Of a stretch of 64,000 nucleotides of DNA, positions 20,431-56,700 are shown piece by piece (within the stretch, counting starts at the first letter, position 1; each line of letters opens with the position of its first letter). Below the pieces are notes generated by a model that was not told the origin of the DNA, searched no databases, and saw only the letters and a program-made list of their open reading frames with translations. Where the stretch lies: the NCBI RefSeq assembly GCF_000381925.1, contig NZ_KB907307.1:2170001-2234000 (forward strand), written 5' to 3'. Both the position numbers and the translations under genes were made by a program. Source of the DNA: Nocardia sp. BMG111209. GTDB taxonomy: Bacteria > Actinomycetota > Actinomycetes > Mycobacteriales > Mycobacteriaceae.

Positions 20431-22425
20431 ATGTTGGTGAAGGTTCGCAACGACGATCCGGCACGGCTGTCCAGCACCGAGCGCACGGTGGTCGCCTGGC
20501 TGCAGACCTGGCGCGACGCCCGCGCCCTGGCCGGGATCGCGGTGTTCAAGGCGCGCGGTACCGATCTCATCGTGTTCACACCGGAAGCGTGCGTGGTGGT
20601 GGCGATCAAATCGTTCACCGAGCGGGCCACCGGCACCCTGCGTTGCGGCGCCGACCAGCCGTGGACCCTGGAGGGCCGGATCGCCCCCCTGGAGGGCGTG
20701 CAGACCGGCAACGAGCCGATCGAGGAGATCACCACCCGCACCGGCGAGATCACCCGCCTGCTGCGCTCGGCCCCCGGTCGCGAGCAACTGAACATCACCG
20801 GCGTCGTCCTGGTGGTCCCGCAGTTCGGCAGCCGCATCACCCTCGACCGCGGCGACCTGCCCGAGGGCATCGACGTGGTCCGCGGCGACGGGCCGTCCTC
20901 CCTGCGTTCGTACATCATGCGGGCATCGGCCGACAATCCCGGCTCCTGGGACGCCGCCCAGGTCGGCCAGGCACTCGGCGTCCTCGGCTTCGCCGCCGCG
21001 GCCACCTTCGCCGAACTCACCGACGAAGGATTCCCGGCCCCCGCCGCCAACCGCACCCCACTCCAACCCCAATCCCCCACCGGCACACCGGCATTCGCCC
21101 CCGCACCCCAACCCGCCTGGGCAGCTGCCCCCGCCGCCGGCCTCCAACCCGTACCCCCCGGCTACCCCACCGGCCAACCACAAGCCGCGGGCGGCCCACT
21201 ACCCGAATCCGCGAATCCGGCCGGCGCACCACCACATCCGAGCGGAGCACCGGCACAGCCCTTCGGCCCCGGTGGTCAGCCCATCGGCCCGGGTGGCCAG
21301 CCGATCGGACCCGGCGGCCAGCCGATCGGACCCGGCGGCCAACCCGTCGGCCCCGGTGGTCAGCCCATCGGCCCCGGCGGCCAGCCATACGGTTCGGGCG
21401 GTCAACCCATCGGCCCAGGCGGTCAACCTCTCGGTCCGGGTGGTCAACCTGTCGGTCCCGGCGGCCAACCCATCGGAGCCAGCGGCCAACCAGTCGGTCC
21501 CGGCGGCCAGCCATACGGCCCGGGCGGTCAACCCATCGGCCCCGGTGGTCAACCAATCGGAGCCGGTGGTCAACCAATCGGTCCTGGGGGTCAGCCTGTT
21601 GGTCCCAGCGGCCAGCCATATGGCCCCGGCGGCCAACCGGTAGGTCCCGGTGGCCAACCGATCGGACCCGGCGGCCAACCGGTAGGTCCCGGTGGCCAAC
21701 CGATCGGACCCGGCGGCCAGGCGATCGGCCCCGGCGGCCAACCGCTACCGCCGCACGGTTCCGGTGGCCAACAACAATCGCTCGGGTACAGCGGGCCACC
21801 ACAACAACCGATCGGTCCCGCGGGTTCCGCATCGCAGCCGGTCGGCCCCGGTGGCGTACCACCACAAGCAACCGGGCCGGCGGGCCCGCAGCCGATCGAG
21901 ACGCCACCGCACGGCGTCGCGGCGATGTCCCAGGGCGCTTCGCTACCACCGGCGGGTCCCGGCTCGCATGCCGCCCCGCCCTACGGTTCCGGACCCGGCG
22001 GCGCGCCGATTCCGACACCGGGCAGCCCGGTGCAGACGGCTACTCCACCCCAATACGACCAGCCCACAACGGAATTCGCGGGAGCGCCGAACGATCCCAA
22101 CGCGGCGTACGCCGGGCAGGACTCGCAGCGTTACTCGATTCCGTTCGACCAGCGCCCGGCCGCCAGGCCACGTCGCCGCCTCGGCAGCATCGCTCCTCTG
22201 GTCCTGCTGGTATTCCTGGTGATCATCCTCGGTCTGGTCGCGATGTGCGGCGGCAGCGGTCACAAATCCACCGGCGGCAACACCGGCCCCACCGGCAATC
22301 ACAGTCCGGGCCTCACCACAGCCCGTCCCACCGGCGCTCCCCCGCCACCGGCCACCCCGACCGAGATGACCATCCCGTCGACCAGCGCCGGACGCGCCTG
22401 TTTCCCCCTGCAACCGAACTGCTGA
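20431..22425 (+). CDS. Membrane-anchored protein with 23 GPGGQP[IVYL] heptads and a NERD-like N-terminus
   Basis: A 664-residue protein of unknown function. Residues 1-200 form a globular, apparently cytoplasmic domain. Its DLIVFTPEACVVVAIKSF stretch (residues 45-62) resembles the core of nuclease-related (NERD) domains, but the usual Glu of the ExK motif is Ala58. Residues 200-278 are Pro/Ala-rich; residues 279-439 are 23 heptads, mostly GPGGQP plus I, V, Y or L. A further Pro/Gly-rich stretch leads to a basic patch (RPRRR), one transmembrane helix (about 585-607) and a 57-residue outer tail ending CFPLQPNC. There is no signal peptide, so the N-terminus should be inside. ATG 20431 has an AGGGG site 9 bp upstream. 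The NERD reading is tentative. Confidence 0.8.
   Translation: MLVKVRNDDPARLSSTERTVVAWLQTWRDARALAGIAVFKARGTDLIVFTPEACVVVAIKSFTERATGTLRCGADQPWTLEGRIAPLEGVQTGNEPIEEITTRTGEITRLLRSAPGREQLNITGVVLVVPQFGSRITLDRGDLPEGIDVVRGDGPSSLRSYIMRASADNPGSWDAAQVGQALGVLGFAAAATFAELTDEGFPAPAANRTPLQPQSPTGTPAFAPAPQPAWAAAPAAGLQPVPPGYPTGQPQAAGGPLPESANPAGAPPHPSGAPAQPFGPGGQPIGPGGQPIGPGGQPIGPGGQPVGPGGQPIGPGGQPYGSGGQPIGPGGQPLGPGGQPVGPGGQPIGASGQPVGPGGQPYGPGGQPIGPGGQPIGAGGQPIGPGGQPVGPSGQPYGPGGQPVGPGGQPIGPGGQPVGPGGQPIGPGGQAIGPGGQPLPPHGSGGQQQSLGYSGPPQQPIGPAGSASQPVGPGGVPPQATGPAGPQPIETPPHGVAAMSQGASLPPAGPGSHAAPPYGSGPGGAPIPTPGSPVQTATPPQYDQPTTEFAGAPNDPNAAYAGQDSQRYSIPFDQRPAARPRRRLGSIAPLVLLVFLVIILGLVAMCGGSGHKSTGGNTGPTGNHSPGLTTARPTGAPPPPATPTEMTIPSTSAGRACFPLQPNC
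21265..21747 (+). repeat. In-frame 21-bp minisatellite, 23 units
   Basis: Twenty-three consecutive 21-bp units encode G-P-G-G-Q-P-(I/V/Y/L). Substitutions are few: GS, GA or GPS at the start of four units and QA in one. Units differ mainly at third codon positions, so the amino acid pattern appears conserved by selection. The array is uninterrupted and keeps frame. Confidence 0.95.
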
Positions 22426-22429
22426 TGCT

Positions 22430-22460
22430 CGATGCCCCGGGGATGGTCCCCGGGGCATCG
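22430..22460. terminator. Bidirectional intrinsic terminator, 14-bp perfect stem
   Basis: A perfect 14-bp inverted repeat (22430-22443 and 22447-22460) with a 3-base loop begins 4 bp after the stop of the repeat protein gene. It faces the convergent secreted-protein gene. There is no T-tract, as is common in actinobacteria. Confidence 0.85.
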
Positions 22461-22507
22461 TGTCGGTGCGATCACTGGCCGACCGGAAGTTGTTCACGGC
22501 GAAACGA

Positions 22508-23212
22508 TTACGCGGATCCGTCTGCGAGGGGCTCGAAATCCCATGTCCTGCAACCGTAGACGATCCGGTCCGCACCGCCGGTGCCGCTGTCGTTGAGCAC
22601 CCCGTACTCGGTGACGATCGCATCGGGATTGTTCTGCGCGATCGTCTGCAACGAGGCCGTCGACTGCTGCCCGCCGGCGAGCCCCTGGATCGCCTGCGTC
22701 GACCACCAATTTCCCGTGACGAGGTTGTCACTGGTCGCCCAGCCCGCCCCGCCTTCGTTGCCGTTGGCCGGTGGCCACCAGACGAGCGTGGTGAAGCCGC
22801 TGCGGTTCGTATCCGTGCGATCCGCCAGGCGGAGTCGCAACTGGAAGCTGACGTACTGGCCCTGGTGCATGAACCCGAGATTCTGCGGGTCGGCGGCCAG
22901 GTCCGACAGCCGTGTGTTGATGCCGGGGTGGAAGTAGTTCGTCCGGCCGCCCGGTGGCGCGTACATGTCCAGATATCCGGTGCCGGAGGCCTGAGTGCCC
23001 TCCGCATATCGCGGCGCCCTGCCGTCGATCGGGAACCACAGCCACGTGGACAGCGGAGACACCGTGGTGGTACCGCACGGAAACCCCGGCGGAAGGCCCT
23101 CGGCGGAGTCCGAACTGCCCTGTTCCGCCCATGCCGGAACGCCGAGTGCGATCAATGCCGCCACAGCGGCCAGGAGGGCAGCGCTGCTCGATCGGACACC
23201 ACGAAGAAACAT
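22508..23212 (-). CDS. Secreted protein of unknown function
   Basis: A 234-residue protein with a clear Sec signal peptide: MFLRGVRSSSAALLAAVAALIALGVPAWA, with probable cleavage after AWA (residue 29). The mature part is aromatic- and Gly-rich, has two cysteines (PCGTTT and YGCRTW) that may form a disulfide, and has repeated W/Y motifs (LSTWLWFPIDG, NYFHPGINTRL, TTLVWWPPANGNEGG) suggesting a beta-rich fold. I recognise no family. ATG 23210-23212 has a GAGGAG ribosome site. It converges on the repeat-protein gene and shares its terminator. Confidence 0.8.
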   Translation of the reverse strand: MFLRGVRSSSAALLAAVAALIALGVPAWAEQGSSDSAEGLPPGFPCGTTTVSPLSTWLWFPIDGRAPRYAEGTQASGTGYLDMYAPPGGRTNYFHPGINTRLSDLAADPQNLGFMHQGQYVSFQLRLRLADRTDTNRSGFTTLVWWPPANGNEGGAGWATSDNLVTGNWWSTQAIQGLAGGQQSTASLQTIAQNNPDAIVTEYGVLNDSGTGGADRIVYGCRTWDFEPLADGSA

Positions 23213-23461
23213 CGACGACTCCTCACACTGTTGTGCGGATGTCGCGTGCCCGCCACCTCCACACGCGAACAGCGCAGCGCTGCGGAGTGATTCGACGGCG
23301 GGCCCGAACAGCCGCAACCGATTGTTGTCGTGAGCACTCGAACGGCAGCCGGTCGGGTGCGGACCGGTGGCATCGACTCGGGTATACGGCCGGTATGTCC
23401 GGGTCGCGCAGCGCAGTCTCACCGGCGCGGACCGGGTGCCACAGCCACCGTGCCGATGGTT

Positions 23462-23480
23462 CGCCGATTCGTTATCGGCG
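23462..23480 (-). terminator. Possible ctaB terminator hairpin
   Basis: CGCCGAT and ATCGGCG form a 7-bp stem with a 5-base loop, about 19 bp beyond the ctaB stop. Two more pairs are possible on each side with one bulged base. The stem is short, so confidence is moderate. Confidence 0.45.
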
Positions 23481-23498
23481 GAAGCCGTGAGCGGCAAC

Positions 23499-24470
23499 CT
23501 AGAGCAGCGGGTGCCAGCCCAGCACGGAATCGACCGCCAGCCCGCAGAACACGACGGCGAGGTAGTTGTTGGACTGCAGGAACAGTCGCAGCGGCTTGAC
23601 CGACTCGCCCCGGCGGACACCGGAGTACAACTGGTGGGCCATCAGCAGGAACCACGCGCCCGCGACGATCGCCACGGCGGTGTAGATCACACCCGTGGCC
23701 GGGATCAGGGCCAGGGTGGCCGCGACGGTGAGCCAGGTGTAGATGACGATCTGCTTGGTCACGACCTGTTCGGTGGCGACCACCGGCAGCATCGGTACCC
23801 CTGCCGCGCGGTAGTCCTCCTTGTAGCGCATGGCCAGGGCCCAGGTGTGCGGCGGCGTCCAGAAGAAGATCACCAGGAACAGGACGAGGGCGGGCCAGCC
23901 GATGGTGCCCCGCACCGCCGCCCAGCCGACCAGGACCGGCATACACCCGGCCGCGCCGCCCCACACCACGTTCTGCGAGGTGCGGCGCTTCAGGCCCAGC
24001 GTGTACACGAAGACGTAGAACAGGATGGTCGCGATCACGAGCGCGCCGGAGAGCAGGTTCGCCTGCCACCACAGCCACGCGAACGAGCCGAGTCCGAGCA
24101 CCACGCCGAAGACGAACGCGTGCGAGGTCGGTACCGCCTCGCGGGCCAGCGGCCGGCGCGACGTCCGCTTCATCACCTTGTCGATGTCGGCGTCGGCGAC
24201 GCAGTTGAGCGTGTTGGCGCTCGCGGCGCCCATCCAGCCGCCGAACAGGGTGGCGAGGATCAGCCGGATGTCGACGTGGCCGCGATGCGCGAGCAGCATC
24301 GTGGGGATCGTGGCGACCAGCAGCAGCTCGATGACGCGCGGCTTGGTGAGCGCGATATACGCCAATATCCGGCGGGTCAGCGTGGCGATCGGGCCGGAGC
24401 CGGTGACACGGTCGCTCAGCACGGGAGCGGAGGAGCCATGTGCACCACCCGGCTGTTGCCCAATCCGCAC
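23499..24470 (-). CDS. ctaB: CtaB protoheme IX farnesyltransferase (heme O synthase)
   Basis: A 323-residue UbiA-family membrane prenyltransferase that adds a farnesyl group to heme B to make heme O, the substrate of CtaA. It has about nine helices. The two polyprenyl-diphosphate sites are [20 protein letters not shown] (first aspartate-rich motif) and the loop [15 protein letters not shown]. The start chosen is GTG 24468-24470, preceded at good spacing by AGGAGA; it is longer by about 15 residues than I remember for mycobacterial CtaB. The divergent neighbour is tkt, as in M. tuberculosis. Confidence 0.94.
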
Positions 24471-31277: not shown

Positions 31278-31353
31278 GCGTCACGGGTGCAAATGGCGTC
31301 ACGGGTGCGAATGCCGGGCACCGGGTGCGAATGCGGGGCGCCGGGTGCGCACA
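31278..31353 (+). repeat. Short non-coding tandem repeat, 18-20 bp units
   Basis: Four degenerate units follow one another. Two 18-bp units of the type GCGTCACGGGTGCRAATG are followed by two 20-bp units built on CCGGGTGCG. The array lies between the convergent pgl and epoxide hydrolase genes. The unit length and frame changes show it is not coding. Confidence 0.7.
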
Positions 31354-32423: not shown

Positions 32424-33275
32424 GTGAACGGAACACTTTCCGGCCGGGTCGCGGTCGTCACGGGGGCCAGTCGCGGCATCGGCAAGGGCATCGCACTGGA
32501 ATTGGGGGCCGCGGGCGCGACCGTCTACGTCACCGGTCGCTCCGCCACCGCCGGCCGGTTGCCCGGCACCGTCCTCGACACGGCCGCGGCTGTCGGCGAA
32601 CTCGGCGGCACGGGGGTGCCGTTCGTATGCGATCACCGCGACGACGAGGCCGTGGCCGGGCTTTTCGCGGCCATCCGCGCGGAGCACGAACGGCTGGACG
32701 TCCTGGTCAACAACGTCTACAACTCCCCCGCCTCCGCGCGCTGGCTGGGCCGGCCGTTCTGGGAGGTGCCGCCGCGGGCATGGGACGAGAGTTTCGACAT
32801 CGGCGTCCGATCCCATTATGTGGCAGCGCATTTCGCCGCGCCGCTGCTGATCGAATCCGGCGGCCTGATCGTCAACGTCTCCTCCCCCGGCGCGGTGCAC
32901 TACACACACAACACGGTCTACGGGGTGGCGAAGGCCGCCGTCGACCGGCTCACCGCCGATCTGGCCCACGATCTGCGCGACACCGGGGTGACCGCGGTGT
33001 CGCTCTGGCCCGGCATCGTGGACACCGAACTGCTGCAACTGGTTCCGGCCGACGCGACGGGACACCGGTCCATCACCCTCCCGGGCGAGGGCACCTTCGA
33101 TCTGGCCGAGGCCCAGTCACCCCGCTTCGTCGGCCGCGCGGTGGCCGCGCTGGCCGCCGACCCGGACCGTCGCGCTCGCACCGGAAAACCCTGGCGGACA
33201 GCGGAACTCGCACGCGCCTACAACTTCACGGACCTGGACGGCACCATCCACGAGGCCGAACCGCTCGCAGGATGA
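32424..33275 (+). CDS. Short-chain dehydrogenase/reductase (DHRS1-like)
   Basis: A 283-residue classical SDR. The cofactor motif is VTGASRGIGKG (residues 13-23), NNVYNSPA follows, and the catalytic Ser and Tyr-x3-Lys are in NVSSPGAVHY and VYGVAKAAVDRL. The length and the DHRDDEAV segment resemble the DHRS1 group. The likely cofactor is NADP(H), from the Arg in GASRGIG and GRSA. The substrate is unknown; the shared divergent promoter with an epoxide hydrolase suggests a joint role in lipid or xenobiotic breakdown. GTG 32424 has CGGAG upstream. Confidence 0.85.
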   Translation: MNGTLSGRVAVVTGASRGIGKGIALELGAAGATVYVTGRSATAGRLPGTVLDTAAAVGELGGTGVPFVCDHRDDEAVAGLFAAIRAEHERLDVLVNNVYNSPASARWLGRPFWEVPPRAWDESFDIGVRSHYVAAHFAAPLLIESGGLIVNVSSPGAVHYTHNTVYGVAKAAVDRLTADLAHDLRDTGVTAVSLWPGIVDTELLQLVPADATGHRSITLPGEGTFDLAEAQSPRFVGRAVAALAADPDRRARTGKPWRTAELARAYNFTDLDGTIHEAEPLAG

Positions 33276-33586
33276 CCGCCCCGGAACCGACCGACATCCC
33301 CGCAATGCCGAAACCCCGTTGTTCGCGGCCCGTCTCGGTCCTGGACTGACGGAGGGAGGGAGCGCAGCGACTGACCGGAGGAGGGAAGGACCGAGACAAA
33401 GGGGGCCGCGAACCCCGCCGGAGCGAAGCGGAGGCTATATTGACACAGTGACTGCCGGGTCGGCCAATAGCCGCACACAGACAGGGTTCCCGGCCGCGCG
33501 TTGAGCGCGGCGCGGGCACGAGGCCCGCCTCTCCCGCATTCCCGAGCGTCAGAACGCTTCCAGGGACTGCGAAGGAGGTGAAATCA
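33276..33586 (+). other. Intergenic region before the S1-domain gene
   Basis: About 310 bp without a convincing gene. Apart from the long inverted repeat it holds a TTGACA at 33440-33445, a weak -35 candidate, and two small GC-rich hairpins at 33494-33510 and 33512-33528. These would lie in the leader of the S1-domain gene. The AGGAGGTG ribosome site is at 33573-33580. Confidence 0.5.
33321..33413. repeat. Long interrupted inverted repeat, 10 + 11 bp arms
   Basis: GTTCGCGGCC (33321-33330) and GTCTCGGTCCT (33332-33342) are mirrored by AGGACCGAGAC (33387-33397) and GGCCGCGAAC (33404-33413), all perfectly. Together they make a 21-bp stem with a 1/6-base internal loop and a purine-rich 44-base loop containing GAGCGCAGCGACTGACCGGAGG-like sequence. 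It lies 45 bp after the SDR stop. It may be a terminator, a structured 5' leader of the downstream S1 gene, or an interspersed palindromic element. Confidence 0.75.
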
Positions 33587-33900: not shown

Positions 33901-34134
33901 TCAGGAGAACTTGATCTGGAAACCGATGCCGAGGATCGAGATGAGCCAGATCAGGCCCACGAAGACGGTGATCCGGTCGAGGTTCTTCTCCACCACGGTC
34001 GATCCGGAGAGGCTGGCCTGCACGCCGCCACCGAACAGGCTGGACAGGCCGCCGCCCTTCGCCCGGTGCAGCAGCACCAGCAGCACCAGCAGCACGCTGG
34101 TGATCACCAGCAGGATGTCCAGGAACATGCGCAT
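33901..34134 (-). CDS. secG: SecG preprotein translocase subunit
   Basis: A 77-residue protein with two transmembrane helices (about 3-21 and 55-73) separated by the conserved loop LLHRAKGGGLSSLFGGGVQ. SecG helps SecYEG insert and export preproteins. The start is ATG 34132-34134 (MRMFLDILL). In mycobacteria secG is near tpi; here about 6.6 kb of extra genes separate them. Confidence 0.95.
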   Translation of the reverse strand: MRMFLDILLVITSVLLVLLVLLHRAKGGGLSSLFGGGVQASLSGSTVVEKNLDRITVFVGLIWLISILGIGFQIKFS

Positions 34135-35046: not shown

Positions 35047-37779
35047 ATGACATCCGCTCCCGGCACCGCCCTCGATCACCGCTTCCGGGCCGCCGTCACC
35101 GCGGCGGTGCCCGGCCCGGCTGACGACCGACCGGGCGGCCCCGACTACCTCGCCCTGTTCGACGCCCAGGTCACCAGCCGGCAGCTCGACCTCGCCGCGC
35201 GTCGCCTGACCGCCGCGGGCCGCGGCTACTACAGCATCGGATCGTCCGGCCACGAGGGCAATGTCGCGCTCGCCGCCGCCCTGCGGGTCACCGATCCGGC
35301 GCTGCTGCACTACCGCTCCGGCGCGTTCTACGTGCACCGCTGTCATCGGATACCGGGCCTGGATCCGATCGGCGACGTACTGCGCGGGGTGGTCGCCGCG
35401 ACCACGGACCCGATCTCCGGCGGCCGGCACAAGGTGTTCGGCAACGCCGCGGCGGCGGTCATCCCGCAGACCTCCACGATCGCCTCGCATCTGCCCCGCG
35501 CGATCGGCCTGGCCTTCGCAATGGACCGGGCCACCCGGCTGGGCCGCTTCACGCCGTGGCCGACGGATGCCGTGGTGCTGTGCAGCTTCGGCGACGCGTC
35601 CGCCAACCACAGCACCGCCACGGGCGCGATCAACACGGCGATTCACACGGCGTACCAGCGCCTGCCGATGCCGATCCTGTTCGTCTGCGAGGACAACGGT
35701 CTCGGCATCAGCGTGCCCACACCCCCGGGCTGGATCGAACAGACCTACGGAACCCGGCCGGGACTCCGGTATTTCACCGCGGACGGCTCGAATCTGGCGG
35801 AGGCGCTGGCAGTTTCGGCCGAGGCGGTGGACTGTGTGCGGGCCACCCGGCGCCCGGTCTTCCTGCGCCTGCGCACGGTCCGCCTGCTCGGGCACGCCGG
35901 ATCGGACCTGGAATCCGCGTACCGGCGCGCCTCCGACATCGTCGACGACCTCGACCGAGATCCGGTGACGGCCACCGGCCGCCTCCTCGTGACCACCGGA
36001 ATCGCCACCGCCACAGAGGTTCTCGCTCGCTACGACGCGATCGCCGACACGGTGGCCCGCACCGCCGACCAGGTCGTGACGGAGCCGAAACTCACCTCCG
36101 CCGCAGCCGTCGTCGCCCCCCTGGCACCGAGCCACCCCGACCTGGTCGACGCCGACGCCCGCCGACCGCACCCACTCCCCCGCACCATTCCCGAAATCGG
36201 CTCGGCCGCCACCCCTTCCGGCACCGACCGCCCGGCCGCGCAGGGCACACAGCAGCCCGAACGCCCCGCCGAACCCGGTGGGCGACAACCCGAACCAACC
36301 GCTGAACCCGGCGGACAGCGACCCGAACCGACTGCTGAAGCGGGCGGGCGGCATTCCGGGCCGGCCACCGAAGCACCCGGGCCACGATCCGGGCCGGACA
36401 TCGAAGCCGGTGGGCCGCGGCCCGAACCAACTGCCGAACCCGGCGGGCGGCACTTCAAGCCGGACACCGAGACAGGCAAGCCACAATCCGGCCCGTCCAC
36501 CGAAACAGGCCGGCGACGGCCTGAATCAACCGCCGAAGCCAGCGGGAGGCACTCGGGGCCGCTCTCCGGAGCAGGCGGTCCACGGTCGGGGCCGGACACC
36601 GAAGGCGTTGGGCCACAGTCGGGCCCGCATACCGAATCCAGTGGGCCACAGTTCAGCCCGCGTACCGAACCCCGTCGCCCACAGTCGGGGCCGGACACGA
36701 AAGTTGGTGGATCGCAGCCCGGCCCGCACACCGAACTCGCCGGGCCGCAACAAGGGTCGACGGTTGCCCAGGCGATCAACCGCACTCTCGGGGAGTTGCT
36801 GGCTCGGGACGACGACCTTCTCGTCTTCGGGGAGGATGTCGGGCGCAAGGGTGGCGTTTATGGGGTGACCAAAGGGTTGCAGAAGTCGTTCGGTGCGCGG
36901 AGGGTTTTCGATACGCTGCTGGACGAGCAGAGTCTGCTCGGGCTTGCGCTCGGGGCCGGGCTGACAGGGTTGGTGCCCATCGCGGAGATCCAGTATCTGG
37001 CCTACGTCCACAATGCGATGGATCAGATCCGCGGCGAGGCGGCCACGCTGGAGTTCTTCTCCTGCGGGCGGTTCCGTAATCCGATGGTGGTGCGCATCGC
37101 GGCGTACGGCTATCAGCGTGGCTTCGGCGGTCATTTCCACAACGACGATTCGGTGGCGGCGCTGCGGGACATTCCCGGCCTGCTGATCGCCTCGCCCGCC
37201 CGCGCCGACGACGCCGCGGCGATGCTGCGCACCTGTGTGTCGGCGGCCCGGGTCGACGGCCGGGTGTGCCTGTTCCTGGAGCCGATCGCCCTCTATCACA
37301 CCCGCGATCTGCACGAATCCGGCGACGATGCGTGGCTCGCGCCGGTCGGCGCGGCGCCGGCGCCGCTGAATCGCGCCCGAATCCACGGCGCCGGAACCGA
37401 TCTCACGATCGTCACGTTCGCCAACGGGGTGCCGATGAGCCTGCGCGTGGCCGCCCGCCTGGCCGACCGCGACCTTCATGCCCGGGTGCTGGATCTGCGC
37501 TGGCTGACTCCGTTGCCCGTCGACGACCTGCTGGCACATGCCAGTGCCACCGGCCGTGTGCTGATCGCCGACGAGACCCGGCGCAGCGGTGGGGTTTCCG
37601 AATCCGTGGCCGCGGTGTTGCTCGACGGCGGATTCACCGGTCCGATCGCTCGCGTCACCAGCGCCGACAGCTTCGTTCCGCTCGGGCCGGCGGCGAACAC
37701 CGTCCTGTTGTCCGAATCGCAGATCGAGGCGGCTGCCGTACGGCTGGTCGACGGGCGATCTCGGGTCGAAAAACGCTGA
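35047..37779 (+). CDS. Fused 2-oxoacid dehydrogenase E1 alpha/beta with repeat linker
   Basis: A 910-residue thiamine-diphosphate protein. Residues 1 to about 395 are E1 alpha, with SSGHEGN, RSGAFYVHR and a TPP motif GDASANHS (from Gly182) through EDNGLGIS. Residues about 571-910 are E1 beta, with FGEDVGRKGGVYGVT, LAYVHNAMDQIRGE, RGFGGHFHNDD and ADETRRSGGVSE. Such fused enzymes oxidatively decarboxylate 2-oxo acids, usually branched-chain. No E2 or E3 gene is nearby. The linker (404-568) is 15 tandem 11-residue repeats, making the protein much longer than the roughly 720 residues I expect of fused E1 proteins. GDA instead of GDG in the TPP motif is a minor variant. Confidence 0.87.
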   Translation: MTSAPGTALDHRFRAAVTAAVPGPADDRPGGPDYLALFDAQVTSRQLDLAARRLTAAGRGYYSIGSSGHEGNVALAAALRVTDPALLHYRSGAFYVHRCHRIPGLDPIGDVLRGVVAATTDPISGGRHKVFGNAAAAVIPQTSTIASHLPRAIGLAFAMDRATRLGRFTPWPTDAVVLCSFGDASANHSTATGAINTAIHTAYQRLPMPILFVCEDNGLGISVPTPPGWIEQTYGTRPGLRYFTADGSNLAEALAVSAEAVDCVRATRRPVFLRLRTVRLLGHAGSDLESAYRRASDIVDDLDRDPVTATGRLLVTTGIATATEVLARYDAIADTVARTADQVVTEPKLTSAAAVVAPLAPSHPDLVDADARRPHPLPRTIPEIGSAATPSGTDRPAAQGTQQPERPAEPGGRQPEPTAEPGGQRPEPTAEAGGRHSGPATEAPGPRSGPDIEAGGPRPEPTAEPGGRHFKPDTETGKPQSGPSTETGRRRPESTAEASGRHSGPLSGAGGPRSGPDTEGVGPQSGPHTESSGPQFSPRTEPRRPQSGPDTKVGGSQPGPHTELAGPQQGSTVAQAINRTLGELLARDDDLLVFGEDVGRKGGVYGVTKGLQKSFGARRVFDTLLDEQSLLGLALGAGLTGLVPIAEIQYLAYVHNAMDQIRGEAATLEFFSCGRFRNPMVVRIAAYGYQRGFGGHFHNDDSVAALRDIPGLLIASPARADDAAAMLRTCVSAARVDGRVCLFLEPIALYHTRDLHESGDDAWLAPVGAAPAPLNRARIHGAGTDLTIVTFANGVPMSLRVAARLADRDLHARVLDLRWLTPLPVDDLLAHASATGRVLIADETRRSGGVSESVAAVLLDGGFTGPIARVTSADSFVPLGPAANTVLLSESQIEAAAVRLVDGRSRVEKR
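36256..36750 (+). repeat. In-frame 33-bp minisatellite, 15 units
   Basis: Fifteen units of exactly 11 codons encode variants of PEPTAEPGGRH or SGPDTEGVGPQ. The reading frame and length are kept while the residues vary. They form the linker between the E1 alpha and E1 beta domains and are rich in Pro, Gly, Glu, Thr and Ser, so the linker should be unstructured. Confidence 0.92.
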
Positions 37780-37812
37780 GCTGTATGTTGTTTCGGTGGC
37801 GGGTGCGGGCGA

Positions 37813-38673: not shown

Positions 38674-38712
38674 GATGCCCTCTTCTCGTAATACGTTGTG
38701 CCCGGCGGCTTC

Positions 38713-39903: not shown

Positions 39904-39933
39904 GCACTAAAACTAGAACCCGATTCCTGTTCT
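39904..39933 (-). promoter_or_regulatory. Leaderless promoter with spaced AGAAC/GTTCT inverted repeat
   Basis: On the minus strand TAGTTT ends 6 bases before the ATG of the amidohydrolase gene, the layout of a leaderless promoter. Just upstream AGAAC and GTTCT (39915-39919 and 39929-39933) form an inverted repeat with 9 bases between. The half-sites equal those of the KstR-like site at 32386, but the spacing differs. The TetR protein encoded next door is the natural candidate to bind. Confidence 0.5.
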
Positions 39934-40000
39934 TTCAAGAGTGCGCGGCAAACCGGAGACGAAAAAGGTTGCAGCCCAAGCAGTTCCGATCGATCATCGA

Positions 40001-40621
40001 TCAGAGCGCGGCGCGCAGGCGTGGTTCGACCAGATCGATGAAGCGGTCGGCCAGCCGGTAGACATCGGCCATCGGCCGCCCGCCGTGGATCACCGCGTCC
40101 GACAGCATCGCGCTGATCACCGACCACAGCATGGCCGCGGTATCCCGGTCGTGGCCGGGGCCGAGGGCGGCGAAATCCGCGGTCAGCCAGCCCTGCGCGG
40201 TGCGGGCGAAGTCGGACAGCAGAGCCCGGGCCTGCGGATCGGTGGTGCCCTGCAACGACACCTGCACCTTGTACAGCCGCGGCTGCCGCTCGAACGCGCG
40301 GATCACCCGGCGCATCCGCACCCGGATCCGCTCCACCGGATCGAGTCCGGCCGACCGGGCGTCGAACGATCGGCTCGCGGGTTCCGCCCAGGATTGCAGG
40401 ACCGCGGCGTACAGATGCTCCTTGGAGGAGAAGTAGCGGTAGAGGGTACCGAGCGCCACCCCCGCCGCCTGGGCCACATCGCGGATCTGGATCTGCTCGT
40501 ACTCGGATTCGGCCAGCGCGGCCAGGGCGGCGTCGACGATGCGGCGCCGCCGGGCCAATTGCCAGGCCGGCATATCCTCCGGCGACCGGCCACCGGCCGT
40601 ACCCTGTGCCTGCTGAACCAT
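40001..40621 (-). CDS. TetR-family regulator, KstR-like
   Basis: A 206-residue TetR protein. The DNA-binding region RRRRIVDAALAALAESEYEQIQIRDVAQAAGVALGTLYRYFSSKEHL resembles KstR, especially VGTLYRYF-SK. The C-terminal half contains the AMLWSVISAMLSDAVIHGG segment. The start is ATG 40619-40621, with GGGAAG 5 bp upstream; ATG 40660 would add 13 residues. It precedes the amidohydrolase pair and probably controls it. Confidence 0.85.
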   Translation of the reverse strand: MVQQAQGTAGGRSPEDMPAWQLARRRRIVDAALAALAESEYEQIQIRDVAQAAGVALGTLYRYFSSKEHLYAAVLQSWAEPASRSFDARSAGLDPVERIRVRMRRVIRAFERQPRLYKVQVSLQGTTDPQARALLSDFARTAQGWLTADFAALGPGHDRDTAAMLWSVISAMLSDAVIHGGRPMADVYRLADRFIDLVEPRLRAAL

Positions 40622-40736
40622 GCTCGCTTCCCGATCGGACGGCCGCGGCCCAAGCCGCATTGCCGCTGCGGAACACTACCCGGCCGTCGCGGACCCATCG
40701 TCACGGTACGGAATGCCGCCGCACCCGGAGACGGGT

Positions 40737-40767
40737 ACGGCCCGGCACTGCGAAAGTGCCGGGCCGT
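40737..40767 (-). terminator. Terminator of the glycolytic operon, 13-bp perfect stem
   Basis: ACGGCCCGGCACT (40737-40749) and AGTGCCGGGCCGT (40755-40767) pair perfectly around GCGAA. It begins 20 bp past the tpiA stop and is the expected terminator of gap-pgk-tpiA. No T-run follows. Confidence 0.87.
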
Positions 40768-40786
40768 GGCCGAAATATGCTGCCGC

Positions 40787-41572
40787 TCAGGGCAGCGGGC
40801 CGCCCGCGGCGATCGCCGAGAGGGTGGCGAACTCGTCGCCCTTCAGCGAGGCGCCACCGACGAGCGCGCCGTCGATATCGGTCCGGGTGACCAATTCGCC
40901 GACGTTCTTCGCGTTCACCGAGCCGCCGTAGAGGATGCGGACACCCCCGGCCACCGGCGCGCCGACCATTTCGGTGAGCTCCTTGCGCAGCGCGCCGCAC
41001 ACCTCCTGCGCGTCGGCGGGGGTCGCCACCCGGCCGGTGCCGATCGCCCAGACCGGCTCGTAGGCGATCACGGTCTTCGACACCTCCTCCGGACTCAGGC
41101 CCTTCAGGGAGCCGCGCAACTGTTCCAGGTTGTAGGCGACGTGGGTCTGCGCCTCCCGGACACCGAGGCCCTCACCGATGCAGACGATGGGGGTCATCCC
41201 GTTCTTCAGCACCTGCTTGGCCTTGGCGAGCACGATCGCATCGTCCTCGTTGTGGTACTGGCGGCGCTCCGAGTGACCGACCACCACGTAGGTGCAGCCG
41301 AGCTTCGCCAGCATGGGACCGCTGATCTCACCGGTGTAGGCGCCGGAATTGTGCACCGACACGTCCTGCGCGCCGAAGGTGATGCGCAGGCGATCGCCCT
41401 CCACCAGCGTCTGCACGCTGCGGATATCGGTGAACGGCGGGATCACCGTGACGTCCACCTTGTCGAAATACTTGTCCGGCAACGCGAATGCGATCTTCTG
41501 CACCAGCGCGATGGCCTCGAGGTGATTGAGGTTCATCTTCCAGTTGCCGGCGATCAAGGGCTTACGTGCCAC
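40787..41572 (-). CDS. tpiA: Triosephosphate isomerase
   Basis: A 261-residue TIM-barrel enzyme interconverting glyceraldehyde 3-phosphate and dihydroxyacetone phosphate. The catalytic residues are visible: Lys in GNWKMN, His in [11 protein letters not shown] and Glu in [11 protein letters not shown]. The phosphate loop is [12 protein letters not shown]. The start is GTG 41570-41572, 3 bp after pgk. Last gene of gap-pgk-tpiA. Confidence 0.98.
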
Positions 41573-47186: not shown

Positions 47187-49508
47187 CTACTCCGCGTTGC
47201 GGGCGGACAACTCCCCGTTGAGGGCGGACAACACCGCCTTCGCCGTCGCCACGCCGATGCCGGGCACCTCCGTGATCTGCTCCACCGTAGCGTCCTTCAG
47301 CCGTGCGACCGAGCCGAAATGAGTGACCAGTGCGGTGCGCCGCGATTCGCCGAGCCCCGGCACCTCGTCCAGTACCGACGCGGTCATCCGCCGCGACCGC
47401 TTGCTGCGGTGGAAGGTGATGGCGAACCGGTGCGCCTCGTCTCGGACGCGTTGCAGCAGGTAGAGGGACTCGCTGTTGCGCGGCATGATCACCGGATCGG
47501 GTTCGTTCGGCACCCACACCTCCTCCAGCCGCTTCGCCAGCCCGATCACCGCGACATCGGTGATACCGAGTTCGTCGAGCACCTCGGAAGCGGCGTTGAC
47601 CTGCGGCGCACCACCGTCGACCACGTACAGATTCGGCGGATAGGAGAATTTGCGCGGCTTGCCCGTCTTGGGGTCGATACCGGGGAGCACGGACGGATCC
47701 TCGGCGTGCTCCGCTTCGAGCGTGTCGAGGTCGCGCCGCAGCCGCGCGAACCGCCGCCGGGTGACCTCGGCGATGCTCGCCACGTCGTCGGAGCGGCCGC
47801 CGCCGGCCGCCTCCTTGATGGTGTAGTGCCGGTATTCGGACTTACGGGCCAGACCGTCCTCGAACACCACCAGCGAGGCGACCACATCGGTGCCCTGGAC
47901 ATGGCTGATGTCGACACATTCGATGCGCAGCGGCGCGCTGTCCAGTTCGAGCGCGTCCTGAATGCCTTGCAGGGCGGCCGATCTGGCGGTCAGATCGCCC
48001 GCGCGCTTGAGCTTGTGCTGCGCCAGGGCCTCCATCGCATTGCGCTGCACGGTCTCCATCAGCGCCTTCTTGTCGCCGCGCTGCGGAACCCGCAGGTGCA
48101 CACCCGCACCACGCAGCCGCGACAGCCAGTCCTGCAACTGCACCGCATCGGCGGGCAGCGCCGGAACCAGGACCTCGCGCGGCACCACCATCGCCGCGGA
48201 CTCACCCTGCTCCGCCGGCGCGTCGTCGACCAGGGCGGCCTGCTCACCGTAGAACTGGGTGAGGAACTGCTCCACGAGCGCCGCCAGCTCCGCGGTACCC
48301 GCCTGGACGATTTCCGCGGGCACGGCAGCGGCGAGTCCGGTTTCGCCCGATTGCGAAATATCCTGCCCGGCAACACTTGTCGTCGACACGTTCACGTCCG
48401 CGGCGCCGACTTCGGGGCCATCCCGCCCGATGGTGTCCGCCACCGACTCGTCCGAGCCGCTGGTGCCCGACTCGTCCGAGCCGGCGGTGTCCGGTTCGGT
48501 CCAGCCGGTGATGTCCGGTGCGCCCAGGCCGGCGGCCTCCGGCTCACCCGAACCGGCGGTGTCCGGTTCACCCTCACCACCCACGACCCGGTCGCCTGTC
48601 GTCCCCGACCAGCTCATGTCGAGGGCGTCGCCGGACTTGTCGACCACCCAGCCGCGCTGGCCGCGCACCCGGCCGTCGCGGACGTGGAAGATCTGGACCG
48701 CGGCCTCGAGTTCGTCGGTGGCGAAGGCGATCACGTCGGCATCGGTGCCCGTGCCGAGCACGACCGCCTGCTTCTCCAGGGCGCGCTTGAGCGCCTGGAC
48801 GTCGTCGCGCAGGCGAGCGGCGGATTCGAAGTCGAGGTCCTCGGACGCGGCCTGCATGCGGCGCTCCAGATCGCGGACCATGCGATCGGTCTTGCCGGAG
48901 AGGAAGTCGCAGAAGTCCTCGGCGATGCGCCGATGCTCCTCCGCGCTGACCCGGCCGATGCAGGGGGCCGAGCACTTGTCGATGTAGCCGAGCAGGCAGG
49001 GACGGCCGATCTGGTTGTGCCGCTTGAAGACTCCCGCCGAGCAGGTACGCACCGGGAACACCCGCAACAGCAGATCGACCGTCTCCCGGATGGCCCAGGC
49101 GTGCGCGTACGGGCCGAAATAGCGCACGCCCTTCTTGCGGGCGCCCCGGTAGACGAAGACGCGCGGATACTCCTCGTTCATGCTCACCGCGAGCATGGGA
49201 TAGGTCTTGTCGTCGCGATACCGGACGTTGAACCGCGGATCGAACTCCTTGATCCAGTTGTATTCCAGCTGAAGCGCTTCCACCTCGGTGGACACCACCG
49301 TCCACTCCACCGACGCGGCGGAGGTGACCATCTGGCGGGTGCGCGGATGCAGCGCGGACAGATCCGCGAAATAGGAATTCAGGCGGCTGCGCAGACTCTT
49401 CGCCTTGCCGACATAGATCACCCGCCCGCGCGCGTCGCGGAATTTGTAGACGCCGGGGTCGACGGGGATCGTGCCCGGTGCGGGCCGGTAGGTCGCGGGA
49501 TCTGCCAC
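47187..49508 (-). CDS. uvrC: UvrC excinuclease subunit with repeat insertion
   Basis: A 773-residue UvrC, about 130 residues longer than the M. tuberculosis protein as I remember it. The GIY-YIG nuclease domain is at about 14-95 ([27 protein letters not shown]), a four-cysteine region ([24 protein letters not shown]) follows, and the UVR motif lies near 205-240. The C-terminal RNase H-like nuclease begins near [24 protein letters not shown], and the end has two helix-hairpin-helix motifs. Between UVR and C-terminal nuclease an acidic Ser/Gly/Thr stretch (about residues 300-400) includes six 8-residue repeats. Catalytic segments look intact. GTG 49508 starts VADPATYRP. Confidence 0.95.
48426..48569 (-). 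repeat. In-frame 24-bp minisatellite in uvrC, 6 units
   Basis: Six consecutive units of eight codons ([48 protein letters not shown]) occupy residues 314-361 of UvrC. They are acidic and predicted unstructured. The units have diverged but keep length and frame. Confidence 0.85.
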
Positions 49509-49518
49509 GGCACCCAGG

Positions 49519-50421
49519 TTAACGATCGGCACCGACAGCCGGCGCCACCCGACCACCGGCCACGTTCGCGCGCACGCGGCGCGCGCCGGCCGCGATCGCC
49601 TCGCACAGCGCGCGCTCCGGATCGGTCGGGGTGCGGTGCCGCCGGACCAGCACGAATTCCAGCTCGCCGAGATCGGGCAGGTTCGGATCGTCGACGGCGA
49701 AAACGTCTGCCGGAAGCAGACTTTCGGCGTGCACGATGACACCGAGCCCGGCCAGCACCGCGGCCCGCAGGCCCAGCTGACTGTCGCTGACGCAGGCCAC
49801 CCGCCACGGTCGCCCCGCGCGTTCCAGGGCGCGCAGCGCGGTGAGCCGGGTGAGGCTCGGCGGCGGATAGGTCACCAGCGGCACCGGATCCTCGAATCCG
49901 CCGGCGCCGCGGCGGGCCGCCCACACCAGCCGGTCCCGCCACAGCAGCTCGCCGTGCTGTTCCCCGGGCAGCCGCTTGCCCACCATCAGGTCCAGTTCGC
50001 CGGCGGCCATCCGGGTCTTGAGGTTCTCGCTGAGCCCCACGGTCAGCTCCAGATCGACGCCGGGATGGGCACGCTGGAATTCGAGCAGGACATCGGGCAG
50101 TTCGCGGCCCACCACATCGTCGGAGGCGCCGAGGCGGATCAGCCCGGACAGCCGGGACCCGGAGAAGTGCCGCGCGGCCTGCTCCTGGGCCTCCAGAATG
50201 GTGCGCGCGAAGCCGACCATGGCGGCGCCGTCGGCGGTCAGGGCCAGATTACGGGTGTCGCGGCGGAACAGTTCCCGGCCGGTGGCCTGTTCGAGGCGGG
50301 CCACATGCCCGCTCACCGTGGACTGCCGCAACCCCAGGATGCGCCCGGCCGCGGTGAATCCCCCGGCCCGTTCGACCGTCAGAAAGGTCCGCAGCAATTC
50401 GGGATCGAACATATTCATCAT
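49519..50421 (-). CDS. LysR-family regulator
   Basis: A 300-residue LysR protein. The N-terminal winged helix is [41 protein letters not shown] (within residues 4-60). The effector domain follows ([24 protein letters not shown]). Several ATGs stand close together at the start; ATG 50419-50421 is used, and MFDPELL at 50412 is possible. No ribosome site is visible. It is divergent from a BASS-family transporter, the typical LysR pairing, with an inverted repeat in between. The uvrC start lies 11 bp downstream of its stop. Confidence 0.88.
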
Positions 50422-50424
50422 GAT

Positions 50425-50454: not shown

Positions 50455-50489
50455 TTTGCGATCAGTCCGCGTGGGCATACCGTACTCTG

Positions 50490-51503: not shown

Positions 51504-51522
51504 CGACCGGCCCGCGCGGACG

Positions 51523-53472: not shown

Positions 53473-53551
53473 GCGGCGACGGTAGCATCGGACGCGCCCG
53501 GGGGACAGGGGATTCGGCAACGCGGGCGGTGCCCACCGGCTGCCGAGCGGG

Positions 53552-55482
53552 TCAGGTGTGCGTGGTGAACGTCGCCATCATCGACATGTCCTCGTGCTCC
53601 AGGTTGTGGCAGTGCAGGACATAGCGTCCCGGGAAATCGGTGAAACGCACGGCGATCTCGGCGGTCTGCGCGGCCCCCAGGTAGAGGGTGTCCTTCCAGC
53701 CGGCGTCGGTGCGGTGCGGCGGGCCGCCGTTGCGCGACAGCACCCGGAACTGGTTGAGATGCAGGTGGATCGGATGATCGAGATCGGTGACCAGCCGCCA
53801 GATCTCGGTGTCGCCGAGCCGGGGACGCGCGATCGGTTCCGTGGGCGAGTAGGCGTGGCCGTTGATCATCCAGCCGTGCGGGGTCCCGGCGTCGCGGCGG
53901 GCGAAGCGGAATGTCCGCGTGGTCACGGCCGCCGCCGGGACCGGAGTGCCGGAATCGGTGAGGACCTCCGGTAACACCGCCGGATCGGCGACTCGGTCGG
54001 TGACCGCGAAACGCATGATGCGCGAGGTGGTTCCGGTGCCGAGTTCGTTGTACACGGTCACCCGGTCCCCCACCGCGCAGCCGGTGAAGTCGATGATCAC
54101 GTCGTATCGTTCGCCGGGTGCGATGGTCAACTCGTCCACCCGCTGCGGCCGGTCCAGCAGCCCGCCGTCGGAACCGATCTGCACGAAATGGCCGTCCCCG
54201 CGCGGCATGTCGGCCCGCAACCGGTACACCCGGGCATTGGAACCGTTCAACAGCCGCAACCGGTATTTCGCGGTGCTCACCCGGTGTTCCGGCCACGGCA
54301 CTCCGTTGACCAGGATCACATCGCCGAGCGCACCACGGGTGAACTTCCCGGTCATTCCGGCGGTGTGCAGCGCCGAGGGGTCGGCCGCGGGATATTTCAA
54401 TGCACCCGCGGCGTCGAATGCCCGGTCGGCCAGCATCAACGGCAGATCGCGGTCACCGGCGGGCAATCCGAGCCGCCGCTCGGCCTCGTCGGTGACCAGG
54501 TGGAAACCGGCGAGCCCACGCCAGACCGCGGCGCCGGTGAAGTCCATGCGGTGGTCGTGGTACCACAGCATCGCCACGGGCTGCCCGGCCGGATACACGT
54601 AGTCGCGCTCACCGATTGCGGTGTGTGCCAGCGTATCCCGCTCCATGCCCATCCCCCTCATATCGGACATGGTCCCGGTGTTCGATCCGCCGGGCATGCC
54701 CGGCATACCCGCCGGATCCGATGTGCCCACCGGATACAGCAGGTCGGTCGGATAACCGTCGGAGTCCTCGGGCACGTGCCCGCCGTGCAGGTGCACCACG
54801 ACCGGCACCGGCAACTCGTTCCGATGGGTGACGACGGTGCGGCGGTCGCGCGCCGATAGCACGGTGGGGCCCGGAAAGCTGCCGTGATAGGTCCACATCG
54901 GCGTCGAATATCCCGGCAGCACAGTGATATTCGCCGGTCGCTGGACGATCCGGTAGTAGTCGGTCGTCTCGTCGCGCGCGATCGGGGCCGGTACCGGCGG
55001 TAGTACCAGCGGCAGGTGAACGGCTCCGGCAGCCGCGCCTCGCTGGTCAGGTGGACGCGATCGGCGGGGGTGTCCGCCGACCACTCCCACGCACCCAGCG
55101 CTCCGGCCACTCCCAGTGCCGCGGCCCCGCGCAGCATCCCGCGCCGCGAAAGCCTGAGTGCCCCAAGGGTTCCCCGATCCGGGACGCTGCCCACCTCTGT
55201 CGGACCGCGACCGGGGCCGGCCACGCGGTCACCGCCAGAGCCGGCCACCTGGTCACCAACGTCGTCCACCCGGTCAACAGAGTCGGCCACCCGGTCACCA
55301 GCGCCAGCCACCCGGTCACCGGAGCCGGCCACCCGGTCACCAGCGCCGTTCTCCTGCGGCGACGGGATGTCCACGGCGGCACGACCACCCACGGCCACCG
55401 CGTGACCACTCGAACCGTTCGGCGACCGGACCGGTGCCGCCTGCCGACCGTCCGCCGCGACTTCCGGCACCTCGTCGCTCAT
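53552..55482 (-). pseudogene. Multicopper oxidase (CueO-like), interrupted by a one-base frameshift
   Basis: All copper sites are present: HLHGGH, WYHDHRMD, HPIHLHLNQF and HCHNLEHEDMSMM, plus a Met-rich stretch (MPGMPGGSN, MRGMGMERD) as in copper-tolerance oxidases. A Tat signal SRRGMLRGAAALGVAG precedes the core but is in another frame. The frame changes near 55015-55018, where RLPEPFT should join LPLVLPPVP; one extra C on the minus strand would restore it. Start ATG 55482 overlaps the upstream membrane gene by ATGA but puts about 110 residues before the Tat motif; GTG 55224 would give a normal Tat leader. Either a true mutation or a sequencing error. Confidence 0.8.
55216..55344 (-). repeat. 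21-bp minisatellite in front of the multicopper oxidase Tat signal, about 6 units
   Basis: Five 21-bp units and one 24-bp unit encode GDRVAGS, GDRVAGA, GDRVADS, VDRVDDV, GDQVAGSG and GDRVAGPG on the minus strand. The frame is kept throughout. Every GDRV unit provides an in-frame GTG, so the array also offers alternative start codons. Confidence 0.85.
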
Positions 55483-55877: not shown

Positions 55878-55892
55878 CACGATCACCCCAAT

Positions 55893-55927
55893 AGTTCAGA
55901 TTTTTGAATAGTTCAGAAGTCTGAACT
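55893..55927. promoter_or_regulatory. MarR operators
   Basis: AGTTCAGA-AG-TCTGAACT at 55910-55927 is a perfect 18-bp palindrome. A weaker copy starting with the same AGTTCAGA half stands at 55893-55910. Both lie in the AT-rich gap between the divergent membrane-protein and MarR genes. Confidence 0.72.
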
Positions 55928-55970
55928 TGTATGCTGATGCTGTCAAGACCGGACCGACAGGAGGCAGCGC

Positions 55971-56429
55971 GTGACCGACGCGGACGACATCGCGGAGTTC
56001 CGATCGCTGGTACCACTGCTGTCGGCGTATCTGCGGCGGGCACACGGCGATATGTCGCCGGAGCTGCAACAGCTGTTCGAATCGGCCGGTCTCGGCCCGC
56101 GGCACGGCGCGGTGCTGTCGTTCGTGCTGTCTTCCGGGCCGGTCAGCGTCGGCGATGTGGCCCGGCAGCTGAGCCTCGGCCTCACCAATGTCAGCCAGCT
56201 CGCCGGTGACCTGACCCGGGCGGGCTGGTTACGCCGCGAATCCGACCCGTCCGATCACCGCCGCACACTGCTGACGGTGCCGCCGGAGCACCGGCAGACG
56301 GTCACGGAATTCCTCGACCGCCGCTCGGCCCCCCTGGCCCGCGCGATCCGGCGCCTGACCCCGGACGAACTCGCGGGCTTCCGCGCGGGCCTCACCGCCT
56401 GGGTCGAGGAGATCACCGCACTGGATTGA
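55971..56429 (+). CDS. MarR-family regulator
   Basis: A 152-residue MarR protein. The winged helix is SVGDVARQLSLGLTNVSQLAGDLTRAGWLRRESDPSDHRRTLLTVPP (about 58-105), with the wing motif DPSDHRR. It has no cysteines suited to redox or metal sensing. It is divergent from the membrane-protein/multicopper oxidase pair and separated by palindromes, so it probably represses them. The start is GTG 55971 with AGGAGG about 8 bp upstream. Confidence 0.87.
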   Translation: MTDADDIAEFRSLVPLLSAYLRRAHGDMSPELQQLFESAGLGPRHGAVLSFVLSSGPVSVGDVARQLSLGLTNVSQLAGDLTRAGWLRRESDPSDHRRTLLTVPPEHRQTVTEFLDRRSAPLARAIRRLTPDELAGFRAGLTAWVEEITALD

Positions 56430-56537
56430 GTTCGGCTGCCGCCCAGCCACATTCGAGCAGGTGGCAACCGACGGCAAACCACATGCAGGTGGACCGCCGC
56501 CAACGGCAAGCCACGTTCGGATCGACGGCATCGACGG

Positions 56538-56700
56538 CGAACCGAGCCCACCGCCGAATCCCGGCATCGGCGAGCCGGATCCAACCCACCACGAATCCCG
56601 GTATCGGCGAGCCGGATCCAACCCACCACGAATCGCGGCATCGGCAATCCGGACCTGACCCGCCACGGGATCACGGCATCGGCAATCCGGACGGTCCCGG
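56538..56700. repeat. Non-coding 37-bp tandem repeat, about 4 copies
   Basis: Units starting at about 56556, 56593, 56630 and 56667 repeat every 37 bp, with a partial copy before the first. The core is CGGCATCGGCGAGCCGGATCC followed by AACCCACCAC-like sequence. A 37-bp period cannot keep frame, so the array is not coding. It fills most of the 295-bp gap between the MarR gene and the end of the TetR gene; nothing else was seen there. Confidence 0.85.

Follow-up and report, generated by a model that had tools for sequence, protein, structure and literature searches.

Why should a single 64-kb stretch of a Nocardia genome carry tandem repeats in four unrelated genes and in two intergenic gaps? 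The stretch (hereafter the window) is G000:C1:2170001-2234000, where G000 is the 9.14 Mb, five-contig genome of Nocardia sp. BMG111209; positions below are those of the window unless a contig is named. A sequence-only reading had described six arrays in it and proposed a genome-wide tendency to expand GC-rich repeats. Our analysis indicates that the six arrays are very probably ordinary bacterial minisatellites, which are duplicated locally, expand or contract, vanish over the course of species divergence, and are sorted by selection.

Results

We detected arrays with Tandem Repeats Finder (TRF), which recovered every one of the six (numbered along the window in Table 1). Counting merged arrays with a period of at least 9 bp, the window contained 12 at a score of ≥50, 8 at ≥70 and 4 at ≥100, whereas 20 dinucleotide-preserving shuffles of the window yielded means per 64 kb of 1.25, 0.05 and 0.00, respectively. 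The arrays are more repetitive than composition predicts, and the repeats are real. Array 1, in a gene that we term TR1, was returned as 21 bp x 23.4 at 21251-21744, with an 84-bp higher-order unit x 5.7 providing the better fit; the interval 21265-21747 holds exactly 23 in-frame 21-bp units. Array 3, in a fused E1 dehydrogenase gene, was returned at 36266-36698 with a period of 33 bp and was best described as 99 bp x 3.0, with 15 degenerate in-frame units from 36271. Array 4, in uvrC, is the weakest of the six: two overlapping rows gave 2.8 and 2.3 copies, and ~5 units of 8 residues are recognizable, so the array stands while its earlier count of 6 x 24 bp was generous. TRF periods of 18-37 bp and contiguous copies are those of minisatellites; the contiguous units have no spacers of the kind found in clustered regularly interspaced short palindromic repeats (CRISPR). 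The window contained no Rfam match at gathering score, and ARAGORN found no tRNA in it.

We compared positions 20-60 kb of the window with 45-kb stretches from its nearest syntenic relatives, N. aurantia RB56 (34.0 kb aligned, 90.9% DNA identity) and Nocardia sp. alder85J (33.1 kb, 87.7%). In both comparisons, length differences between conserved blocks fell mostly at arrays. Five of the 7 gap sites listed against N. aurantia touch the six arrays (those in TR1, E1, uvrC, the oxidase leader and the MarR/TetR gap), with the TR1 gap beginning at the array end and the E1 array lying inside a larger unaligned stretch. Against alder85J, 6 of 12 listed sites do so. Two further sites are arrays of alder85J where the window has none (40775-40781 and 58238-58265, the latter represented by 28 bp in the window), two are gene-size differences, and two (33265-33447 and 59523-59535) are not arrays of the window. 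The MarR/TetR gap carrying array 6 measures 299-305 bp in the window vs 43 bp in alder85J and 40 bp in N. aurantia, with flanking genes that are 84-90% identical to those of the relatives. At the site of array 2, in the gap 3' of pgl, N. aurantia carries a perfect array of unrelated units (14 bp x 4.6), and alder85J has 46 bp without an array. Taken together, these findings indicate that array length differs between lineages, here between species, while flanks stay conserved. The idea of expansion and turnover put forward from the sequence is thereby supported: across conserved flanks, the arrays are absent, replaced or rebuilt in N. aurantia and alder85J.

Several observations from the same stretches deserve mention. 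The joined alder85J region (L275-L277, window orientation) has repeat-bearing inserts of its own at 39094-39267 and 40517-40854, at sites that span 28 and 13 bp in the window. Window segments 22426-23500 (~1 kb) and 37749-40698 (~3 kb), both gene-sized and unrelated to the arrays, are missing from alder85J. In the joined N. aurantia region (L278-L280, window orientation), the 14 bp x 4.6 array (14360-14423) is followed by an inverted repeat that by eye resembles a terminator. Finally, a perfect 9 bp x 3 repeat at 34069-34095 of the window (CAGCAGCAC) has an identical unit and copy number in the syntenic stretch of alder85J, indicating that some repeats do not turn over. This repeat belongs to a set of smaller TRF arrays that the sequence-only reading had not listed (3827-3874, 15646-15677, 34069-34095, 47189-47237, 49556-49620 and 55890-55925).

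Array 1 is the one array whose peptide is demonstrably selected. The TR1 protein has one membrane span near its C-terminus (by eye), and its N-terminal domain scored 17.4 bits against Pfam NERD (nuclease-related; PF08378), under the 22.1 cut-off, so that the resemblance is weak, although a NERD-like function may still apply. A protein scan of named genomes returned 19 loci, all from Nocardia, the best match being alder85J (75% over the best segment), with N. aurantia (71%) also close. We read these 19 loci (L253 truncated) together with 19 from the relatives (L003-L021; L006 truncated), the 2 sets of species partly overlapping. The orthologues share a conserved N-terminus and a variable linker; the GPGGQP array was found only in N. 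aurantia, which has 26 units whose last residue is mostly L instead of I/V/Y, while alder85J keeps the gene with a shorter linker and no such array. Pairwise differences between the units of array 1 were 0.166, 0.034 and 0.542 at codon positions 1, 2 and 3, respectively, corresponding to a ratio of nonsynonymous to synonymous differences (pN/pS) of 0.15, and the third-position excess was significant in both the window (p = 0.00015) and N. aurantia (p = 0.0002; 20,000 shuffles of the 21 columns). The heptapeptide is thus under purifying selection, as expected of a selected repeat peptide. The DNA that encodes it has nonetheless changed. Between the window and N. aurantia, units paired along the best diagonal (17 pairs) differed by 0.266 vs 0.295 over all pairs, with within-species means of 0.247 (window) and 0.290 (N. 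aurantia). Since registered units are barely closer than arbitrary pairs, although the array flanks are 92% (5') and 85% (3') identical, most of the array has been rebuilt after the two lineages parted, with its peptide preserved. Recent block duplication is shown by an exact internal repeat of 53 bp at an offset of 42.

In contrast to array 1, coding arrays 3, 4 and 5 are weakly or not constrained. For array 3 the pN/pS was 0.65, and the E1 linker, measured anchor to anchor with some conserved sequence included, spans 278 residues in the window, whereas alder85J has 206 and N. aurantia 116. For this linker and for the UvrC loop we surveyed the 29 relatives with fetched loci, of 58 searched; their E1 linkers span 91-264 residues and lack the 11-residue unit by eye. 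Array 4 gave a pN/pS of 1.12 over nine 24-bp slices, an imperfectly registered set of which only ~5 are unit-like. Array 5 gave 0.91, a value inflated by a sixth unit that is one codon out of register.

A uvrC gene was matched in 59 of the 59 Nocardia genomes searched. The array-bearing loop sits between a conserved VVDKSGD and a second conserved anchor, and falls between the stretches that match solved structures (residues 22-112, and 518 onward). In the window it measures 119 residues; alder85J has 138 and N. aurantia 177, even though across 507 columns outside the loop the UvrC proteins of the window and N. aurantia share 97% identity. Among the surveyed relatives it was 16 residues long in 20 of 29, 14 in one, and 31-63 in eight, namely 62-63 in a single clade (G040 and G049) and 31-42 in six others. 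On a maximum-likelihood tree of 32 UvrC proteins built with the loop excluded, the expanded state (≥30 residues) required 5 parsimony changes, at least 3 of which were forced by well-supported branches. Expanded loops are dissimilar in sequence between clades, as repeated local birth predicts. The clade of this species has the longest loops, and its genome seems, in addition, to hold somewhat more arrays than is usual in the genus. In our judgment it is highly improbable that this loop, as a recurrent site of repeat birth in Nocardia that grew several times from ~16 to 31-177 residues, tunes UvrC activity or its interaction with partners through its length; if it did, expansion and excision repair could affect each other. 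Two other features of the gene were noted. UvrC residues ~598-618 form a second poorly conserved stretch, at which the matches in several relatives break, and the 21 bp x 2.3 repeat at the uvrC 3' end (47189-47237) is matched at the corresponding N. aurantia position by a similar one of 21 bp x 2.0.

The sequence-only reading held that all coding arrays keep frame. Their periods of 21, 33, 24 and 21 bp are indeed multiples of 3; the array-bearing leader of the multicopper oxidase, however, is out of frame with the oxidase. Array 5 shares its frame with the twin-arginine translocation (Tat) motif, and that frame stops short of the oxidase domain, whose own frame is a different one. The Tat motif and the oxidase occupy a single frame in all 13 relatives that are ≥56% identical (L063-L075) as well as in alder85J and N. 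aurantia (15/15), and a more distant homologue (L076; 44%) has no Tat motif. Either the oxidase gene is broken here or there is an error in the sequence. In the window 111 residues precede the Tat motif, compared to 37 in N. aurantia, where the leader is without the array and alike at both ends; between aligned blocks the window has 238 bp and N. aurantia 13 bp. After the split, therefore, either this lineage gained array 5 or that of N. aurantia lost it. A short Met/Gly-rich stretch within the oxidase (54657-54687) is a second variable site, being ~90 bp longer in N. aurantia. In one relative (L075; G013:C141:24436-25807), the oxidase match is in two pieces near the C-terminal end, and that copy may be disrupted too.

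We next consider how unusual the window is. To count densities we applied one TRF setting throughout, kept arrays with a score of ≥70 and a period of ≥9, and merged overlaps. The window contained 12.5 arrays per 100 kb, while two 400-kb sets drawn from the same genome (forty 20-kb stretches) gave 7.75 and 6.25, bringing this genome to 64 arrays in 864 kb (7.4 per 100 kb, window included). Ten Nocardia with one- or two-contig assemblies gave 5.25 per 100 kb and five relatives, in stretches partly syntenic with the window, gave 4.0 (400 kb each), or 37 arrays in 800 kb (4.6 per 100 kb) when pooled. Thirteen genomes from other genera of the order gave 10.5 (400 kb). Because arrays are clustered (0 to 9 per 20 kb), the 1.6-fold excess of this genome over other Nocardia is weak. 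The window is on the high side of the ordinary range, and its density is typical of the order as sampled. Within this sample, array densities of this kind are largely normal, a result that the sequence-only reading had named as counting against it, with other genera of the order at 10.5 vs 7.4 per 100 kb here; the tendency is not supported as special.

We also examined where arrays reside, using the 38 coding and 26 intergenic arrays of the G000 sample (window included, with the oxidase leader counted as intergenic). The period was a multiple of 3 in 36/38 coding vs 14/26 intergenic arrays (Fisher p = 1.5e-4), and in 55/58 vs 20/43 for all Nocardia sampled (p = 5.6e-8). Of the 26 intergenic arrays of G000, 8 lay in convergent gaps, a class that makes up 82 of 521 gaps (p = 0.041 by count, 0.003 by gap length), and 3 lay in divergent ones (count, p = 0.091; length, p = 0.001). 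Avoidance of divergent gaps was not clear elsewhere: other Nocardia had 4 convergent, 4 divergent and 6 codirectional arrays plus 3 at stretch ends, and other genera had 4, 4 and 7, respectively. On a residue scale of disorder, the array peptide was more disorder-prone than the rest of its protein for 28 of 37 coding arrays (p = 8.9e-5), a sample that includes seven arrays from one giant open reading frame (ORF) and five from another. Three of the 37 are counter-cases, being folded repeats by eye: two tetratricopeptide repeat (TPR)-like (L132 and L134) and one pentapeptide-like (L249). The view that arrays are tolerated where protein is disordered is thus supported as to disorder, while "tolerated" is too weak a word for array 1 and for the three folded-repeat arrays. 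One stretch of the sample (L127, positions 1070-19999; G000:C1:1350001-1370000) is a single open frame of at least 6310 codons, truncated where the stretch ends, with seven tandem arrays, and looks like a giant repeat-rich protein.

Table 1. Arrays of the window and the genes that carry them (TRF copies given as period x number; a point denotes an intergenic feature).
Feature	Position	Strand	Description	Basis
TR1 gene	20431..22425	+	N-terminal domain weakly NERD-like; Gly/Pro/Gln-rich linker with array; short Cys-containing tail	Translation, Pfam, orthologues
Array 1	21265..21747	+	23 x 21 bp; peptide GPGGQP(I/V/Y/L); 84-bp and 42-bp higher-order duplications	TRF, unit alignment
Array 2	31278..31349	.	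18 bp x 3.0 / 20 bp x 3.4; tail-to-tail gap between 6-phosphogluconolactonase gene (+) and next gene (-)	TRF
Fused E1-alpha/E1-beta 2-oxo acid dehydrogenase gene	35047..37779	+	Array 3 in interdomain linker	Pfam E1_dh, Transket_pyr, Transketolase_C
Array 3	36271..36765	+	~15 x 33 bp; degenerate 11-residue unit; 99-bp higher-order unit	TRF
uvrC	47187..49535	-		Matches to solved UvrC domains
Array 4	48426..48569	-	Degenerate 24-bp units; UvrC loop	TRF 48443-48534
Multicopper oxidase domain ORF	53552..55090	-	Out of frame with upstream Tat leader	Pfam Cu-oxidase domains, frame comparison
Oxidase leader	55091..55482	-	Start at ATGA overlap with upstream gene (55482); 111 residues, then Tat motif SRRGMLRGAAALGVAG	Translation
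Array 5	55216..55349	-	21 bp x 6.2 (42 bp x 2.7); peptide GDRVAGS/A; Tat n-region	TRF
Array 6	56547..56691	.	37 bp x 3.9; tail-to-tail gap between MarR gene (+) and TetR gene (-)	TRF; Pfam for both genes

Discussion

We propose that short GC-rich segments are duplicated in place, replication slippage or unequal recombination being the probable cause; that blocks of one to four units then expand or contract, mutate, and disappear as species diverge; and that selection acts on place, retaining arrays in flexible linkers, loops and leaders if three divides the period, and in intergenic DNA mostly away from divergent promoters. Array 1 has been retained as a selected Gly/Pro/Gln peptide linker, with the other five representing mostly tolerated, presumably neutral, length variation. 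We infer the molecular step, slippage or recombination, from the local origin of the arrays, their block periods (84, 99 and 42 bp) and replacement at the same site.

Not everything fits this interpretation comfortably, and the following points weigh against it. Array change was seen between species only, with one genome per species. Our home-made gene finder calls some genes wrongly, TR1 among them, and placed the oxidase leader in the intergenic class. Counted by gaps, the excess in convergent positions is weak (p = 0.041) and the deficit in divergent ones has p = 0.091, with clustering rendering the arrays non-independent. At the protein level, the array segment of TR1 (query 283-491) weakly matches an ORF elsewhere in the genome (G000:C1:3566687-3567304; 32%, E = 1.5e-12); this match probably reflects a shared Gly/Pro-rich composition, although the two may share common descent. 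Lastly, expansion driven by hairpins was considered and rejected: z-scores for DNA folding ranged from -1.93 to +1.50 without a consistent signal (parts only for arrays 1 and 3), and slippage assisted by hairpins thus gained no general support.

Several other explanations can be weighed against this background. Were a repeat mutator at work in this lineage, expanding arrays unusually actively compared with the ordinary background of the order, one would expect an excess such as the 64 arrays in 864 kb of G000 vs 37 in 800 kb of other Nocardia, the 12.5 per 100 kb of the window, and a UvrC loop that is long in this species and both of its nearest relatives. That other genera reach 10.5 per 100 kb, that the 1.6-fold excess arises from clustered counts, and that UvrC loops have also expanded elsewhere in the genus makes such a mutator unlikely. 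Loss of MutS was not usable as a cause; two adjacent ORFs match MutS_V above its cut-off (G000:C1:2278036-2279933; L284 and L285). Mismatch repair is, moreover, not expected to act on loops of such size. We questioned likewise whether the arrays serve as adaptive length switches, resembling contingency loci, that tune a protein or its expression by variable number of tandem repeats (VNTR). Purifying selection on the array 1 peptide in two species favors this view, as does the precedent of M. tuberculosis, where fpg1 expression correlates with the length of an upstream tandem repeat (PMC2734929). Yet array 1 is missing, with its gene kept, from alder85J and all other relatives read except N. 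aurantia, the remaining coding arrays are little constrained (those of the oxidase leader and uvrC being imperfectly registered), and both intergenic arrays lie 3' of both neighbours rather than at promoters. With coding periods that are multiples of 3 and two non-coding arrays placed between gene 3' ends, the pattern is not that of phase-variable loci, and we regard length switches as quite unlikely.

Sequencing or assembly error could account for some copy numbers or for the frame break in the oxidase, given that GC-rich repeats are hard to assemble and that a break soon after an array-bearing leader is suspicious. As a general explanation this is very unlikely: separately assembled relatives carry comparable arrays, the window lies inside a 5.06-Mb contig, and the divergence of units at many sites indicates that most are not collapsed or duplicated artefacts. 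The presence of arrays at several unrelated sites within one 64-kb window might alternatively suggest spread by a mobile element or by one resembling repetitive extragenic palindromic (REP) sequences. We found no off-site blastn match (E ≤ 1e-3) for any of the six arrays in 864 kb of the 9.14 Mb genome, and array 1, searched genome-wide, matched only itself (40 of 189 first-look candidates scored). Their units are unrelated, the similar copies elsewhere that would mark a mobile or interspersed repeat (mycobacterial interspersed repetitive unit (MIRU), REP or transposed satellite) were not found in the 864 kb searched, and the window gave no Rfam match. We therefore reject spread from one element, an explanation that is extremely improbable, and on this point agree with the sequence-only reading, which had argued from the differing units that the arrays did not spread in that manner.

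The arrays belong to a known kind of sequence, that of bacterial minisatellites and VNTRs. They resemble mycobacterial VNTR loci in having head-to-tail units of 10-100 bp, in being local, GC-rich, both genic and intergenic, and in differing in length between lineages; they differ in that no typing or expression role is known for the six Nocardia arrays and in that the variation seen here is between species. MIRU-type repeats of mycobacteria are also tandem and intergenic and occur in the same bacterial order, whereas for the Nocardia arrays we found no shared dispersed family, and units are unrelated between sites. Variation in the length of low-complexity linkers is known in multidomain proteins. 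TR1, E1, the UvrC loop and the Tat n-region likewise have conserved domains around a hypervariable Pro/Gly/Gln/Glu-rich segment, albeit with array 1 standing out as an unusually regular heptapeptide that is selectively kept. In the passages on satellites of their survey, Subirana and Messeguer (2019) report that gene segments encoding amino-acid repeats make up many prokaryotic satellites, that bacterial periods are predominantly divisible by three, and that satellites rarely transpose (PMC6749651). The same passages, in which we found no Nocardia, give 4.20 satellites per Mb for S. coelicolor and 4.99 for M. tuberculosis, figures that are not comparable with our TRF counts because finder and thresholds differ. 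Titles and abstract openings on tandem repeats in Nocardia, on coding tandem repeats of actinobacteria and prokaryotes, on mycobacterial VNTRs and on UvrC insertions in Nocardia yielded no description of these arrays.

What the window provides is a clean case in which minisatellites arise, get replaced and are rebuilt between close species, within conserved repair and metabolic genes whose flanks remain ~83-93% identical. Moreover, one peptide array kept by selection can be told apart from arrays that look merely tolerated. These findings also counsel caution: in proteins of actinobacteria, neither the length of a linker nor an insertion of low complexity is good evidence of function.

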